From positions 1 to 32,445 of IMG/VR virus record IMGVR_UViG_3300025132_000159: a stretch of 32,445 bases of DNA. One strand, 5' to 3'. How positions within the stretch are numbered: position 1 is the first letter of the stretch; the number at the start of each line of letters is the position of its first letter. Below the pieces are notes generated by a model. That model had not been told where the DNA came from, searched no databases, and saw nothing but the letters and a program-made list of their open reading frames with translations. This DNA comes from a virus. The translations under genes and the position numbers were made by a program. Positions 26,723 to 30,941 of the stretch are shown here, in pieces.

Positions 26723-27012
26723 TGAGTGCTATGCGTGCTTCTTTTTTGTTTGTTCCCGGCTACCCTGACGTGTCTCGCAATGCCGTCTGGGCTTTGTGCA
26801 GGCTCCCTAAGAGCTTTTGGCGTGGCCTTCCTACCATCTACGAGGGGGTCATGTCTGACCTCAAGCTGAGCACCTCCCGGTGGCGGTTTGCTCTGTCGCG
26901 ACTGACCGTCGCAGACGGTGTCGATAGTGACTTCTGCGTACAGATCTTTGCGAAGATGTCTGACGGCGGTTGGGATTGTGTCGCCTTAATCTCTGAACAG
27001 CAGGAGGGCTAA
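26722..27012 (+). CDS. Small early protein, 96 aa
   Basis: Same junction as the previous gene: a 19-nt stretch around the ribosome-binding site is identical, and the ATG at 26722 shares its A with the TGA. The N-terminus (AMRASFLFVPGYPDV) is followed by a Trp-rich, compact-looking sequence (LPKSFWRGLPTIYEGVMSDL, STSRWRFALSRLTVADGV). Family not recognised. Its TAA at 27010-27012 is immediately followed by a GTG and, 5 nt later, by the methyltransferase ATG. Confidence 0.6.
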   Translation: MSAMRASFLFVPGYPDVSRNAVWALCRLPKSFWRGLPTIYEGVMSDLKLSTSRWRFALSRLTVADGVDSDFCVQIFAKMSDGGWDCVALISEQQEG

Positions 27013-28074
27013 GTGACATGGCTTTACATACCCTATCTCTCTTCGCCGGATACGGAGGGCTTGACCTCGGTATCCACCGAGCAGCTCGCGGGAAGGCTCA
27101 GACAGTCTGTGCTGTGGAGATCGAGGCCTATGCCGCTGCGAACCTCTCGTCGCCTCGCGTCCAGCGCAAGCTGGGTAGGTTTCCTATCTGGTCTGACGTT
27201 GCCACATTCGACGGTACAGCGTGGCGCGGACAGGTTGATGTCTTGGCTGCTGGAATCCCGTGCCAGCCATGGAGTGTCGCAGGTGCCCGCAAAGGCAGTG
27301 CCGACAAGCGATGGCTCTGGGCAGACACCTTCCGCATCCTGCAGGAGTGCGGCGCAAGTATGCTCATCCTCGAATGCACCCCCAACCTCCGAAAGGGGGG
27401 CCTTCCGATCATCCTTGACGACCTTGCCAGCATCGGGTGGTCTGCGGAATGGGGCACTTATACCGCGCAAGAAGCGGGAGCACCCCACCGTAGGGCGAGG
27501 TTCTTCTTGGTCGCGTGGGACGTTTCCCACACCGACCGCGTCTCGGTATGGTTCAAGTCAGAACGGATGCAACGGGAAGGGGGGAGCGTTCGAGAGGCCC
27601 TCGGCGGGGACTCCAAGCCTGGATACGTGGGCGAGAAGCTCGTACCGCCTTGCTCATCCCTGGTGGCCGACGCCAACCGTAGACCCGATGCGATCTCGCA
27701 GCGGCAGCAGGAAAGCAGAGCCGACGCTGCACTCAATGGCGAAGGCCTGGCCGACACCAACAGCGAGCGACTCTCGCAGCAGCGGAAGGCACACAACAAC
27801 GACTGGGGTGATGCACCCCGGCACGAGCTTGACCGACGCGATGCGCGGGTGGGCAACACCGACAGCTCGCGACCACAAGTCCACACGAGCCAGCGCAGCC
27901 ACACACAGCAGGAACTCTCGACCGCTCAGCGGGCAGGTGGGGGAGTGGTCTGGCCGCCGAGACCAGACGACGAGCACGGGTGGCGAGAGTACATCGCAGC
28001 CGGTGGTGCTCAACCCGGAGTTCTTGGAGGCCCTCATGGGCCTGCCGACAGGGTGGACCGAGTGCGGCTCTTAG
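27013..28074 (+). CDS. Alternate-frame ORF nested with the methyltransferase, 353 aa
   Basis: This frame opens with GTG at 27013, 4 nt after GGAGGG and directly after the previous TAA, and overlaps the methyltransferase almost fully. From about residue 130 the sequence is structured: FRSSLTTLPASGGLRNGALI, then FPTPTASRYGSSQNG (171-185), WPTPTVDP (218), WPTPTASDSRSSG (246), WATPTARDHKST (280), NSRPLSGQVGEW (301) and the end LNPEFLEALMGLPTGW (333-348). From memory, this run of W-PTPTA-D motifs with a terminal LNP-x-(F/W)-(V/L)-E-x-LMG-x-P-x-GW is a widespread protein type near phage methyltransferases, often misannotated as methyltransferase. The role is unknown. The first 100 residues may be just a shadow of the conserved methyltransferase frame, so the real start could be internal. 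Expression is not proven. Confidence 0.6.
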   Translation: MTWLYIPYLSSPDTEGLTSVSTEQLAGRLRQSVLWRSRPMPLRTSRRLASSASWVGFLSGLTLPHSTVQRGADRLMSWLLESRASHGVSQVPAKAVPTSDGSGQTPSASCRSAAQVCSSSNAPPTSERGAFRSSLTTLPASGGLRNGALIPRKKREHPTVGRGSSWSRGTFPTPTASRYGSSQNGCNGKGGAFERPSAGTPSLDTWARSSYRLAHPWWPTPTVDPMRSRSGSRKAEPTLHSMAKAWPTPTASDSRSSGRHTTTTGVMHPGTSLTDAMRGWATPTARDHKSTRASAATHSRNSRPLSGQVGEWSGRRDQTTSTGGESTSQPVVLNPEFLEALMGLPTGWTECGS

Positions 28075-28145
28075 GGAACGGCGTCGTTCCGCAGCAGGCT
28101 GAGCTTGCCATCATTGACTTGTGCTCTCGCATTGGAGGTGAGTGA
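27018..28145 (+). CDS. C5-cytosine DNA methyltransferase, 375 aa
   Basis: Methylates cytosine in DNA with S-adenosylmethionine, probably to protect phage DNA from host restriction. LSLFAGYGGLDLG (6-18) is motif I, AVEIEAY (32-38) motif II, AAGIPCQPWSVAG (78-89) motif IV with nucleophile C82, LECTPNLRKGG (118-128) motif VI, GAPHRRARFFLVA (154-166) motif VIII, and RLLGNGVVPQQAELAI (350-365) motifs IX/X. Motif VI has ECT where ENV is usual. Residues about 215-315 are low-complexity with repeated 'ADxN/ADTNSER/GNTDSSR' elements, in place of a normal target-recognition domain. The same DNA is open in another frame (27013-28074). The shared ribosome-binding site is GGAGGG, 9 nt upstream. Confidence 0.9.
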   Translation: MALHTLSLFAGYGGLDLGIHRAARGKAQTVCAVEIEAYAAANLSSPRVQRKLGRFPIWSDVATFDGTAWRGQVDVLAAGIPCQPWSVAGARKGSADKRWLWADTFRILQECGASMLILECTPNLRKGGLPIILDDLASIGWSAEWGTYTAQEAGAPHRRARFFLVAWDVSHTDRVSVWFKSERMQREGGSVREALGGDSKPGYVGEKLVPPCSSLVADANRRPDAISQRQQESRADAALNGEGLADTNSERLSQQRKAHNNDWGDAPRHELDRRDARVGNTDSSRPQVHTSQRSHTQQELSTAQRAGGGVVWPPRPDDEHGWREYIAAGGAQPGVLGGPHGPADRVDRVRLLGNGVVPQQAELAIIDLCSRIGGE

Positions 28146-28507: not shown

Positions 28508-28938
28508 TGGACAACCGAGTTGAGATGTCATCCCATGCAATGTTCCCAACGATCGAAGACTTTGAGGAGATGAAGGCGGGCACCCTCTACATGAGGCACG
28601 CTGGACTAGACCTTCACGACCTCGTCAAGCTTAAGGGGCACGAGGCTATAGCCGAGGACTGCGCGACAGGAGAGCGAAGCCTTAAAGCGTGGTTGTGCGG
28701 GCAGAACCCTCCGTCGTTTGACAGCCTTTACAGGCTGGCATGCATACACCCTGACTTCTCCGTCGTTAAGACCGTGCTACGCATTGGCTACATGAGGGAG
28801 ATAAAAGGAGTTGACCGACGGACTCTTGAGTACAAGCCCATGGGGTTCGCCGCTATGCGCCCTGGACAGGCCAGCGAGTGCGCTAGAGTGGCGCTCCGAA
28901 AGCGAGAGGAGAACAGAAGGAGGACTGACAATGGATAA
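28507..28938 (+). CDS. Probable HTH-type protein, 143 aa
   Basis: About residues 30-95 look like a helix-turn-helix domain: HAGLDLHDLVKLKGH, AIAEDCATGERSLKAWLCG, NPPSFDSLYRLACIHPDFSV. The 'rt-t-r-s-L-k-a-W-l-x-G-x-x-P-p' pattern is typical of small Xre-like domains in phage genes. The C-terminal 30 residues are basic (ALRKREENRRRTDNG). It could regulate the early operon, including the palindrome in the early promoter, or be a replication accessory because it directly precedes the helicase loader. It overlaps that gene by 8 nt. Family membership is an inference. Confidence 0.6.
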   Translation: MDNRVEMSSHAMFPTIEDFEEMKAGTLYMRHAGLDLHDLVKLKGHEAIAEDCATGERSLKAWLCGQNPPSFDSLYRLACIHPDFSVVKTVLRIGYMREIKGVDRRTLEYKPMGFAAMRPGQASECARVALRKREENRRRTDNG

Positions 28939-29746
28939 GCCATGTCTAAGGTGCCAAGGGTACGGGCATTATGAGAAGGACGGTTACACGTTTGCTTGTG
29001 CCTGCTCGATGGGCAGGGTGAACCGCGACAAGCCGCTATGGCTGCGGAATAGCGAGGCCATGGAGGCCATATCTCGCGGCGTTCCATCTAAGGTTCGCCA
29101 GTTTACGGCGGGCAAGTATCGCTATGCCCTTGACCATCGCGGTGAAGCTAACCGACTGATGATAGAGTGGCTGCGGTGCAGGCTTCGACTTAATACTGGG
29201 CACCCCTCGCTTTATTTTTGGGGTCCGACGGGGACGGGAAAGTCGGTGATAGCAGCCGAGGCATGTCGCCTGGCGCTTGTCGAAGGCCTTACCCGCACGT
29301 TTCTATGGCTGAGCGAAGGCGAGCTGGTGACAGCCATCAAGTCGAGGTACACAAAGGACGCGCAGTCTGACGCTAGAAAGACACTGTCTAACGCAAAGGA
29401 CTGCGGTCTTTTGATTATTGATGAGTTCACCACTCAAGGTCTTAGTCTTTACTCAACTCAGGCTAAGCGAGAGGTGGTTGATATGCTGGCAGATCGCTTT
29501 GATAACGACCGACCTACCATTATGACCAGCAACCGGCAGTGGCGGTCTTCTGAGTGGCCTGACAGGCTTGTATCCCGATGGGAGAGGAGTGTGCGCGAGG
29601 TAGAGATAAGCGGATGCGACTTACGCAGTACGACGAGTGGCGGGGATGTTGCAACTCACCCCCACCACTCTAGCTCTCTCTCTCACAACAAAGCTGACGA
29701 GGAGGTTAATTGTATGGATCAACAAAGTAAAGGGGCGGTTACATGA
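28931..29746 (+). CDS. DnaC-like AAA+ helicase loader, 271 aa
   Basis: This protein loads the replicative helicase onto phage DNA. I choose ATG at 28931 because AAGGAGG lies 7 nt before it; longer in-frame starts would run through the previous gene. CLRC...CAC (5-8 and 23-25) forms an N-terminal zinc-binding knot as in DnaC-type loaders. GPTGTGKS (98-105) is Walker A, LLIIDE (160-165) Walker B, MTSN (198-201) sensor 1, and RLVSRWERS (212-220) the arginine-finger region. The last 40 residues are Ser/His-rich and probably disordered. No replicative helicase gene is visible, so it probably recruits the host DnaB. Confidence 0.9.
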   Translation: MDKPCLRCQGYGHYEKDGYTFACACSMGRVNRDKPLWLRNSEAMEAISRGVPSKVRQFTAGKYRYALDHRGEANRLMIEWLRCRLRLNTGHPSLYFWGPTGTGKSVIAAEACRLALVEGLTRTFLWLSEGELVTAIKSRYTKDAQSDARKTLSNAKDCGLLIIDEFTTQGLSLYSTQAKREVVDMLADRFDNDRPTIMTSNRQWRSSEWPDRLVSRWERSVREVEISGCDLRSTTSGGDVATHPHHSSSLSHNKADEEVNCMDQQSKGAVT

Positions 29747-30315
29747 GTGGCAACGAAACGGTGGCTGAGCTTCGCCGGCAAGCAGACGAGTTAATGGTTA
29801 TGCTTCACGGCCAGCTTAATTCCAAGGGCCAGTCCTTGACGGACCAAGAGTTTGCGCAGCTGCTAGGCGACTGGGTAAGCAGGGCCAGCAACAAGCTGGT
29901 CGCGTGCCGGCAAGTGATAGCAAGCTGTGCGGCCAGAAGGGAGTCTTACGAGGGCGAGATCGAGGCGTTTGCAGTTCTTGTCGAGCGCGAGAGCAAGGCG
30001 ATCGACAGGGTTAACGACTACGCTCTTATGCTCTTGGACAAAGAGCTCGAGGTGGCCAATGCCACTGCCGAGGAAGGCAAGTCTGTCGACAAGGTCAAGC
30101 TACCTGATGGCAGCTGGGCCAAGCTTTATCTTGGTAAAGGACGCCTTGTAAACGTAACCAACTGGGACATGTTGCCTCAGGAGTTCGTCGTTAGTCGTGC
30201 CGACAAGGCTGCGATTAGGGACGCCATCAAGGCCGGTCATTCCGTCCCAGGAGCAGAGATTGTTGAGAGTCACAAGCCAGCCCGCGTCCAATGGGGCGGC
30301 AGGAGAAAGAAATGA
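29743..30315 (+). CDS. Gp157-like protein, 190 aa
   Basis: The N-terminal 120 residues form a long coiled coil (ELRRQADELMVMLHGQLN, then KLVACRQVIASCAARRESYE). The C-terminal part has KVKLPDGSWAKLYLGKGRLV, then WDMLPQEFVVSRADKAAIRDA and a GHSVPGAEIV-type end. This is the pattern of the Siphovirus Gp157 family, which occurs with ERF and SSB genes and is named after a Streptococcus phage resistance protein. Its exact role in replication or recombination is unknown. It starts inside the helicase-loader stop (ATGA) and its own stop overlaps the next start. Confidence 0.85.
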   Translation: MSGNETVAELRRQADELMVMLHGQLNSKGQSLTDQEFAQLLGDWVSRASNKLVACRQVIASCAARRESYEGEIEAFAVLVERESKAIDRVNDYALMLLDKELEVANATAEEGKSVDKVKLPDGSWAKLYLGKGRLVNVTNWDMLPQEFVVSRADKAAIRDAIKAGHSVPGAEIVESHKPARVQWGGRRKK

Positions 30316-30941
30316 TCAGAAGCGAGCTTACTAACAGAAGTGAATTAACCACTAGCGCAGAGGTGGATAAGATTTACCCTGCTCTCATTAAGGCAATCCA
30401 CAGCATGCCTGTCGTAGGAAAGAACGCGCCTAACCAGAGCTGGCTGTTTGCCAACCTTCAGGCTGTCACCGAGGCGTCTCGCGACCCTTTGCGCGACAAC
30501 GGGCTGGCGATCACCTGCTTCGCAGCCAACCACGACATGCATTACGGCGTGATCGCGAGGCTTATTCACGAGTCAGGGCAGTGGATGGAGTGTCCGGTGT
30601 ATCTTCCATCTAAGAACCGTGGCAACGCCGACCAAGGTGCTGGCAGCAGCTTCACTTACACACGCCGTTACGTGATGTGCTGCATTCTTAACATTGTCAC
30701 CGGCGAGGACAACGACGCCAACAGCCGGCAGCAGGAGATTAAAAGACTACAGCAGGAGGAGGTTGTGTCTAAGCTTGAGGAGAAGAAGTTTAGAGCGTCG
30801 TGCCGTGACCTTTTGCACCACTTAAAACCTAGCGGTATCACATGGGCCACGATTGCCGAGAAACATGGCTTTGCCTTAAGGCCGGATGAAATACCAACAC
30901 ACCAGCGAGAAGAAGTTCTTGCCGCACTGAGGAGCGCATAA
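30312..30941 (+). CDS. erf: ERF-type single-strand annealing protein, 209 aa
   Basis: Promotes annealing of complementary single strands, as in P22 Erf. AGGAG lies 6 nt before ATG at 30312; a GTG/ATG-type start at 30291 would place it further back within the previous gene. The core SAEVDKIYPALIKAIHSM, then NLQAVTEASRDPLRDNGLAI, then GVIARLIHESGQWMECPVY, and the signature SSFTYTRRYVMCCILNIVTG followed by EDNDAN (YxRRY-type loop) match the family. The C-terminal 60 residues are a coiled coil and small helical domain. It is followed by the SSB-like gene in a TAATG junction, so both are made together. Confidence 0.88.
   Translation: MIRSELTNRSELTTSAEVDKIYPALIKAIHSMPVVGKNAPNQSWLFANLQAVTEASRDPLRDNGLAITCFAANHDMHYGVIARLIHESGQWMECPVYLPSKNRGNADQGAGSSFTYTRRYVMCCILNIVTGEDNDANSRQQEIKRLQQEEVVSKLEEKKFRASCRDLLHHLKPSGITWATIAEKHGFALRPDEIPTHQREEVLAALRSA

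Follow-up and report, generated by a model that had tools for sequence, protein, structure and literature searches.

Two-polypeptide C5-cytosine methyltransferases

In 1995 Lee, Kam and Shaw reportedly found the small chain of M.EcoHK31I to be encoded in an alternative frame inside the gene for the large chain, with both chains needed in vitro. The large chain carries motifs I–VIII and X and a predicted target-recognition domain (TRD) and the small chain only motif IX, while M.AquI is split in its variable region into two polypeptides, with motifs IX and X on the small chain (PMC3404938). Long same-strand overlaps with selection acting in both frames have rarely been documented in bacteria and phages.

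The window analysed here is an IMG/VR viral record of 32,445 bases, in which the locus at 27013-28145 contains two open frames, termed alpha and beta (Table 1). We consider it highly probable that they encode a two-subunit C5-cytosine methyltransferase, the subunit genes being overprinted in two frames from paired starts. Compared by description, the locus looks like a start-coupled and widespread variant of the M.EcoHK31I-type split enzyme in which beta carries the recognition domain. As in M.EcoHK31I (YGGCCR), motifs I–VIII and X are in one chain and motif IX, or here a motif IX-like sequence placed by position and resemblance, is in the other; the smaller chain is likewise read in another frame within the gene of the larger, and is under selection. 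However, beta extends along the whole gene, its start being paired with that of alpha, and the recognition region is selected in beta, not alpha, whereas the TRD of M.EcoHK31I is predicted in the larger subunit (PMC3404938), which counts against placing recognition in beta. M.AquI (CYCGRG) is also a two-polypeptide C5 methyltransferase, but at this locus motif X stays with alpha. Searches of plasmids and E. coli for an M.EcoHK31I homologue identified a related subtype, none so named. The openly accessible literature yielded no previous account of the phage family, although REBASE or subscription journals may contain one.

Locus organisation and paired start codons

Both long ORFs reported in the first-pass annotation are real, as are all the peptides that it quoted, and LADTNSER of alpha (27747-27770) and WPTPTASD of beta are the same DNA read one base apart. 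Position 2 of beta codons is position 3 of alpha codons, and the beta wobble position is alpha position 1. The start codons (27013/27018) are 5 bases apart, with the end of the GGAGG core of a Shine-Dalgarno-like sequence 5 nt from the beta GTG and 10 nt from the alpha ATG, and one ribosome site may serve both. According to the ORF listing, minus-strand frames at the locus are long too.

Table 1 Features of the overlapping alpha and beta frames in the window.
Feature	Position	Strand	Remarks
Shine-Dalgarno-like AGGAGGG	27002..27008	+	Direct sequence reading
Beta ORF	27013..28074	+	GTG start directly after TAA of upstream gene; 353 aa; +1 frame relative to alpha
Alpha ORF, C5-cytosine methyltransferase	27018..28145	+	ATG start; 375 aa; motifs I–VIII and X
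Beta N-terminal WLYIP motif	27019..27033	+	VTWLYIP in window; conserved in family (M-x-W-L-Y-x-P)
Alpha motif I, LSLFAGYGGLDLG	27033..27071	+	Aligned with C5 methyltransferases
Alpha motif IV region, GIPCQPWS	27249..27320	+	Catalytic-type PCQ; aligned with C5 methyltransferases
Alpha motif VI region, LILECTPNL	27363..27389	+	E-C-T where ENV is usual
Alpha motif VIII, GAPHRRARFFLVAW	27477..27518	+	Constraint switches from alpha to beta just downstream
Region between motifs VIII and X	27522..27971	+	Codon-position rates reversed: beta constrained, alpha not
Beta FPTPTASRYGSSQNG	27523-27567	+	In VIII–X region
Beta WPTPTVDP	27664-27687	+	In VIII–X region
Beta WPTPTASD	27748-27771	+	In VIII–X region
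Beta WATPTARDHK	27850-27879	+	In VIII–X region
Beta C-terminus, LNPEFLEALMGLPTGWTECGS	28009..28071	+	Motif IX-like; best conserved stretch of beta; homologue of FSEWMQGWPLGW in single-chain enzymes
Alpha motif X, DRVDRVRLLGNGVVPQQAEL	28047..28106	+	Overlaps end of beta; constrained in both frames in relatives

Of 96 loci in which the beta start could be placed, 92 have the two starts no more than 5 nt apart; this count is biased towards motif-bearing loci because beta starts were located via a WLYxP-like motif. Alpha starts 4 nt before beta in 62 loci (ATGNATG), 2 nt after it in 26 (ATGTG or GTGTG) and 5 nt after it in four, including the window. Across clades the beta N-terminus conforms to M-x-W-[LI]-[YV]-x-P, and 63 of 68 alphaproteobacterial leaders encode MTWLYLP or MTWLYIP, the next residues of alpha being more variable. 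These leaders evolve as beta-coding sequence, with alpha-frame rates of 0.154/0.107/0.096 at codon positions 1/2/3, position 1 being the fastest.

Alpha matches Pfam PF00145 above the cut-off (E 6.8e-30) and phrog_363 (1.5e-47), and in a profile search against solved structures its I–VIII part matches HhaI/HaeIII. The PCQ of motif IV is accompanied by motifs I and VIII, and a motif X with the GN pair (LLGNGVVPQQA) lies in the same frame. The claim that this frame carries motifs I–X holds for I–VIII and X, with E-C-T instead of ENV in motif VI (Glu retained, N and V absent), and fails for motif IX, which is not recognisable in the alpha frame; a motif IX-like sequence sits in the +1 frame. Alpha thus departs from the ordinary single-chain layout, where the TRD and motif IX lie between motifs VIII and X of the same chain. 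The E-C-T variant is apparently common to the clade of locus L091, as judged from the matching beta frame.

Genes downstream of the pair (28811-30938) match an AAA/IstB-type loader, Siphovirus Gp157 and ERF. The methyltransferase looks like an orphan, since none of the ten neighbouring ORFs scanned has a Pfam restriction-enzyme match, the only hit of this kind being a sub-threshold one to ResIII on the loader.

Stop codons in the +1 frame

Openness alone had been flagged as weak evidence, and this caution was justified: the window has no +1 stop, where synonymous shuffling predicts 2.3 (P about 0.05). Comparison across loci settles the question. In 30 distinct loci, picked by the alpha frame alone, there are no +1 stops where about 90 (90.2) are expected by synonymous shuffling, and 340 stops against 383 expected in the +2 frame. 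Because many of the loci are related to one another, the counts cannot be treated as independent, although the base compositions of the loci are very different. Five loci with 43–50% GC (L169, L161, L077, L078 and L080) have +1 frames open for roughly 330–390 codons and 22–30 stops in the +2 frame; in L169 (43% GC) the first +1 stop is at codon 391 of 414. Single-chain control enzymes have 99 +1 stops against 133.5 expected. Frequent stops in homologous loci, which would have spoken against a second protein, are not seen, and the frame beginning at 27013 is kept.

Over alpha residues 10–168, the 116 loci examined contain two +1 stops against about 181 expected. Stop avoidance is equally strong over the catalytic region, as would be expected if translation of beta began at its extreme N-terminus rather than internally, close to the point where constraint changes frame. 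L074 and L076 are more distant homologues in which the tested span contains one or two +1 stops; they are possibly beta variants with other boundaries. L064, in which an indel near codon 93 joins the alpha N-terminus to the beta frame, was set aside as a probable assembly error or pseudogene.

Selection in the two frames

Constraint is handed over along the gene: alpha is constrained in motifs I–VIII, beta between VIII and X, and both near the end. In a first set of 37 disjoint pairs, alpha-frame rates at codon positions 1/2/3 are 0.073/0.052/0.183 for residues 1–100, 0.055/0.035/0.169 for residues 101–168 and 0.086/0.045/0.132 from residue 319 on, while residues 169–318 give 0.229/0.075/0.074, the pattern of coding in the frame of beta. 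A second set, obtained by scanning bacterial genomes, comprises 74 usable alphaproteobacterial contigs, many relatives of which are also in the viral set. In its 36 Rhodobacterales pairs, omega in the catalytic region is 0.21 (0.18-0.25) for alpha and 0.70 (0.62-0.80) for beta; in the recognition region, 1.30 (1.07-1.64) and 0.12 (0.10-0.14), respectively; and in the IX/X overlap, 0.12 (0.06-0.17) and 0.21 (0.13-0.34), so both frames are constrained at once near the end (LNPEFLEALMG/GNGVVP).

Alpha residues 169–318 behave as unselected filler, the peptides that shadow beta across this region being VADANRR, LADTNSER and VGNTDSSR. Since alpha is unselected between motifs VIII and X (omega about 1.3), it is without a conserved recognition domain of its own. 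The same reversal, although weaker, is found in seven pairs outside the alphaproteobacterial clade (0.326/0.178/0.194 in the VIII–X region), and the window compared with L091 gives 0.49/0.30/0.27 in the recognition stretch. Single-chain control enzymes have no reversal (0.186/0.107/0.299) and position 3 is fastest throughout. Third positions of alpha are thus constrained exactly where beta matters; an absence of such constraint had been anticipated if the +1 frame were meaningless. Together, stop avoidance, codon-position rates, two-frame omega and the conserved start strongly support the first-pass annotation in its proposal of an ancient dual-coded locus with a selected second protein.

The constraint boundary is sharp just after motif VIII, where a programmed +1 frameshift would sit. 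Such a shift would yield a fused chain carrying motifs I–VIII, the recognition region and motif IX, with the unshifted product as the chain bearing motif X and no N-terminal start for beta, and single-chain enzymes show that the fused order works. However, the +1 frame is open across the whole upstream catalytic region (two stops against about 181 expected, as given above), and the conserved M-x-WLYxP of beta begins with a separate start codon no more than 5 nt from that of alpha, in a leader evolving as beta-coding. As a replacement for separate initiation, frameshifting therefore seems improbable, although a frameshift product could possibly be made in addition to alpha and beta.

Sequence content and homology of beta

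The N-terminal part of beta, over the catalytic region, is long and weakly constrained except for the first residues. The conserved half consists of PTPTxxD modules and ends in LNPxFVExLMGWPxGWT. Pfam and NCBIfam contain no family for beta, but it matches phrog_1008 (‘DNA methyltransferase’), as do 53 of 54 beta proteins; this is a family profile rather than a mechanism, and the two frames of the window match different parts of it. The two signatures had been described as treated separately near phage methyltransferases. This is correct in that usually one half is annotated, but some annotators list both ORFs as methyltransferases, PHROG 1008 is itself named as one, and M.EcoHK31I is a two-polypeptide precedent (PMC3404938). 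In phages Alfacinha3 and Ssp-JY39 it is the beta frame that is annotated, over the alpha frame.

Single-chain actinophage enzymes (Mycobacterium prophage prophi91-1 gp16 and relatives; alignment A5) carry motifs I–VIII, PTPTxxD modules, FSEWMQGWPLGW and GNGVVPQQA in one frame. They resemble the locus in these elements, including (F)SEWMQGWPxGW, but form one chain without dual coding. The conserved half of beta, as a 14-row alignment of the constrained part, aligns to their VIII–X segment (hhalign 98.3%, E 1.8e-14), and alpha aligns to their residues 1–184 in a profile comparison (E 1e-29). Because in single-chain homologues this segment sits in frame, flanked by motifs VIII and X, beta is apparently the target-recognition and motif IX-like part of a methyltransferase, of which alpha is the part with motifs I–VIII and X. 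By position and resemblance, LNPxFVExLMGxPxGW may correspond to motif IX of M.HhaI. A link to motif IX by direct profile match to solved structures was tried and rejected, as the matches of the alpha and single-chain profiles did not reach beyond motif VIII, and the beta profile gave only chance matches to coat proteins and designed proteins.

An AF2 model of beta alone, from 52 homologues, is mostly of low confidence (mean pLDDT 55), except for the C-terminus (pLDDT 88–89). The single-chain enzyme was also modelled with low confidence (pLDDT 41) and its recognition region failed too.

The idea that the second protein modifies or inhibits the enzyme fares less well. Beta does exceed the length of a minimal recognition domain and carries a conserved motif at its N-terminus, as might be expected of a separate regulator or inhibitor. 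However, homology of its conserved half to the VIII–X segment of single-chain enzymes, in combination with the lack of selection on alpha over that stretch, makes such a role unlikely, and beta is best read as the recognition and motif IX half.

A probable two-subunit enzyme encoded in two frames

In the two-subunit enzyme that we favour, ribosomes at one site would start at either the beta GTG or the alpha ATG and read each subunit to its own stop. Alpha would supply the catalytic domain (I–VIII) and motif X, and beta the target-recognition region, made up of the PTPTxxD modules, and the motif IX-like end; the two would assemble into one enzyme methylating phage DNA, presumably as protection from host restriction. 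Where a subunit is encoded over the working domain of its partner, its sequence would be largely filler, needing only to stay open. That the +1 ORF is instead a passive, untranslated shadow of a GC-rich methyltransferase gene, as the marginal openness of the window alone and the long antisense frames might suggest, was rejected and is extremely improbable given stop avoidance (0 versus 90 expected) and openness at 43–55% GC, codon-position rates, a beta omega of 0.12 where alpha is unconstrained, homology of beta to a single-chain enzyme domain and single-chain control genes without these features.

The dual-frame arrangement most likely arose from a single-chain ancestor by two frame changes, one between motif VIII and the recognition region and the other between motifs IX and X. 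Mycobacterium phage GaugeLDP (gp82/gp81; L172:1290-2520) has an M.AquI-like split at the same junction: gp82 stops after motif VIII, and the modules, the IX-like sequence and motif X lie in gp81, which is read in a different frame. It is intermediate between the single-chain and dual-frame layouts.

The layout is found in many phages and in the 74 alphaproteobacterial contigs examined, mostly in prophage-like context. These loci probably represent a large unrecognised class in phages and prophages, where one initiation site with starts 2–5 nt apart in different frames would yield a heterodimer, its catalytic and recognition subunits both being obligate; the frame under selection would alternate along the gene, and recoding alpha, as in codon optimisation, would silently destroy the enzyme. 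The products of the two frames look like two halves of a single enzyme, function moving between frames along the gene. Gene callers usually keep one frame, so that annotations lack either the catalytic or the recognition half, and alpha genes that are cloned or codon-optimised may be inactive for an unsuspected reason. The locus offers a natural split methyltransferase, and yields a testable claim about where recognition is located in the M.EcoHK31I type.

Related loci with internal beta starts

Paenibacillus larvae phages have a methyltransferase with a nested +1 ORF, as in the pair Bloom_56/57 (ATPTASE, WPTPAAQD and LNPDWVECLMGFP), both annotated, but here beta starts inside alpha and stops interrupt the early portion of the +1 frame. 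A related pair was identified in Burkholderia phage BcepC6B, in phage-plasmids of Enterobacteriaceae and in E. coli prophages such as that of ETEC H10407. This BcepC6B-like subtype is related to the window locus and occurs in E. coli and Salmonella. Its +1 frame is interrupted by stops early on and is then open from an internal point, so beta of the Salmonella/E. coli subtype must start internally. Three BcepC6B-like loci from E. coli prophages, ETEC H10407 among them (L280:676-1689, L281:1063-2097 and L282:656-1684), have +1 frames open over most of the gene.
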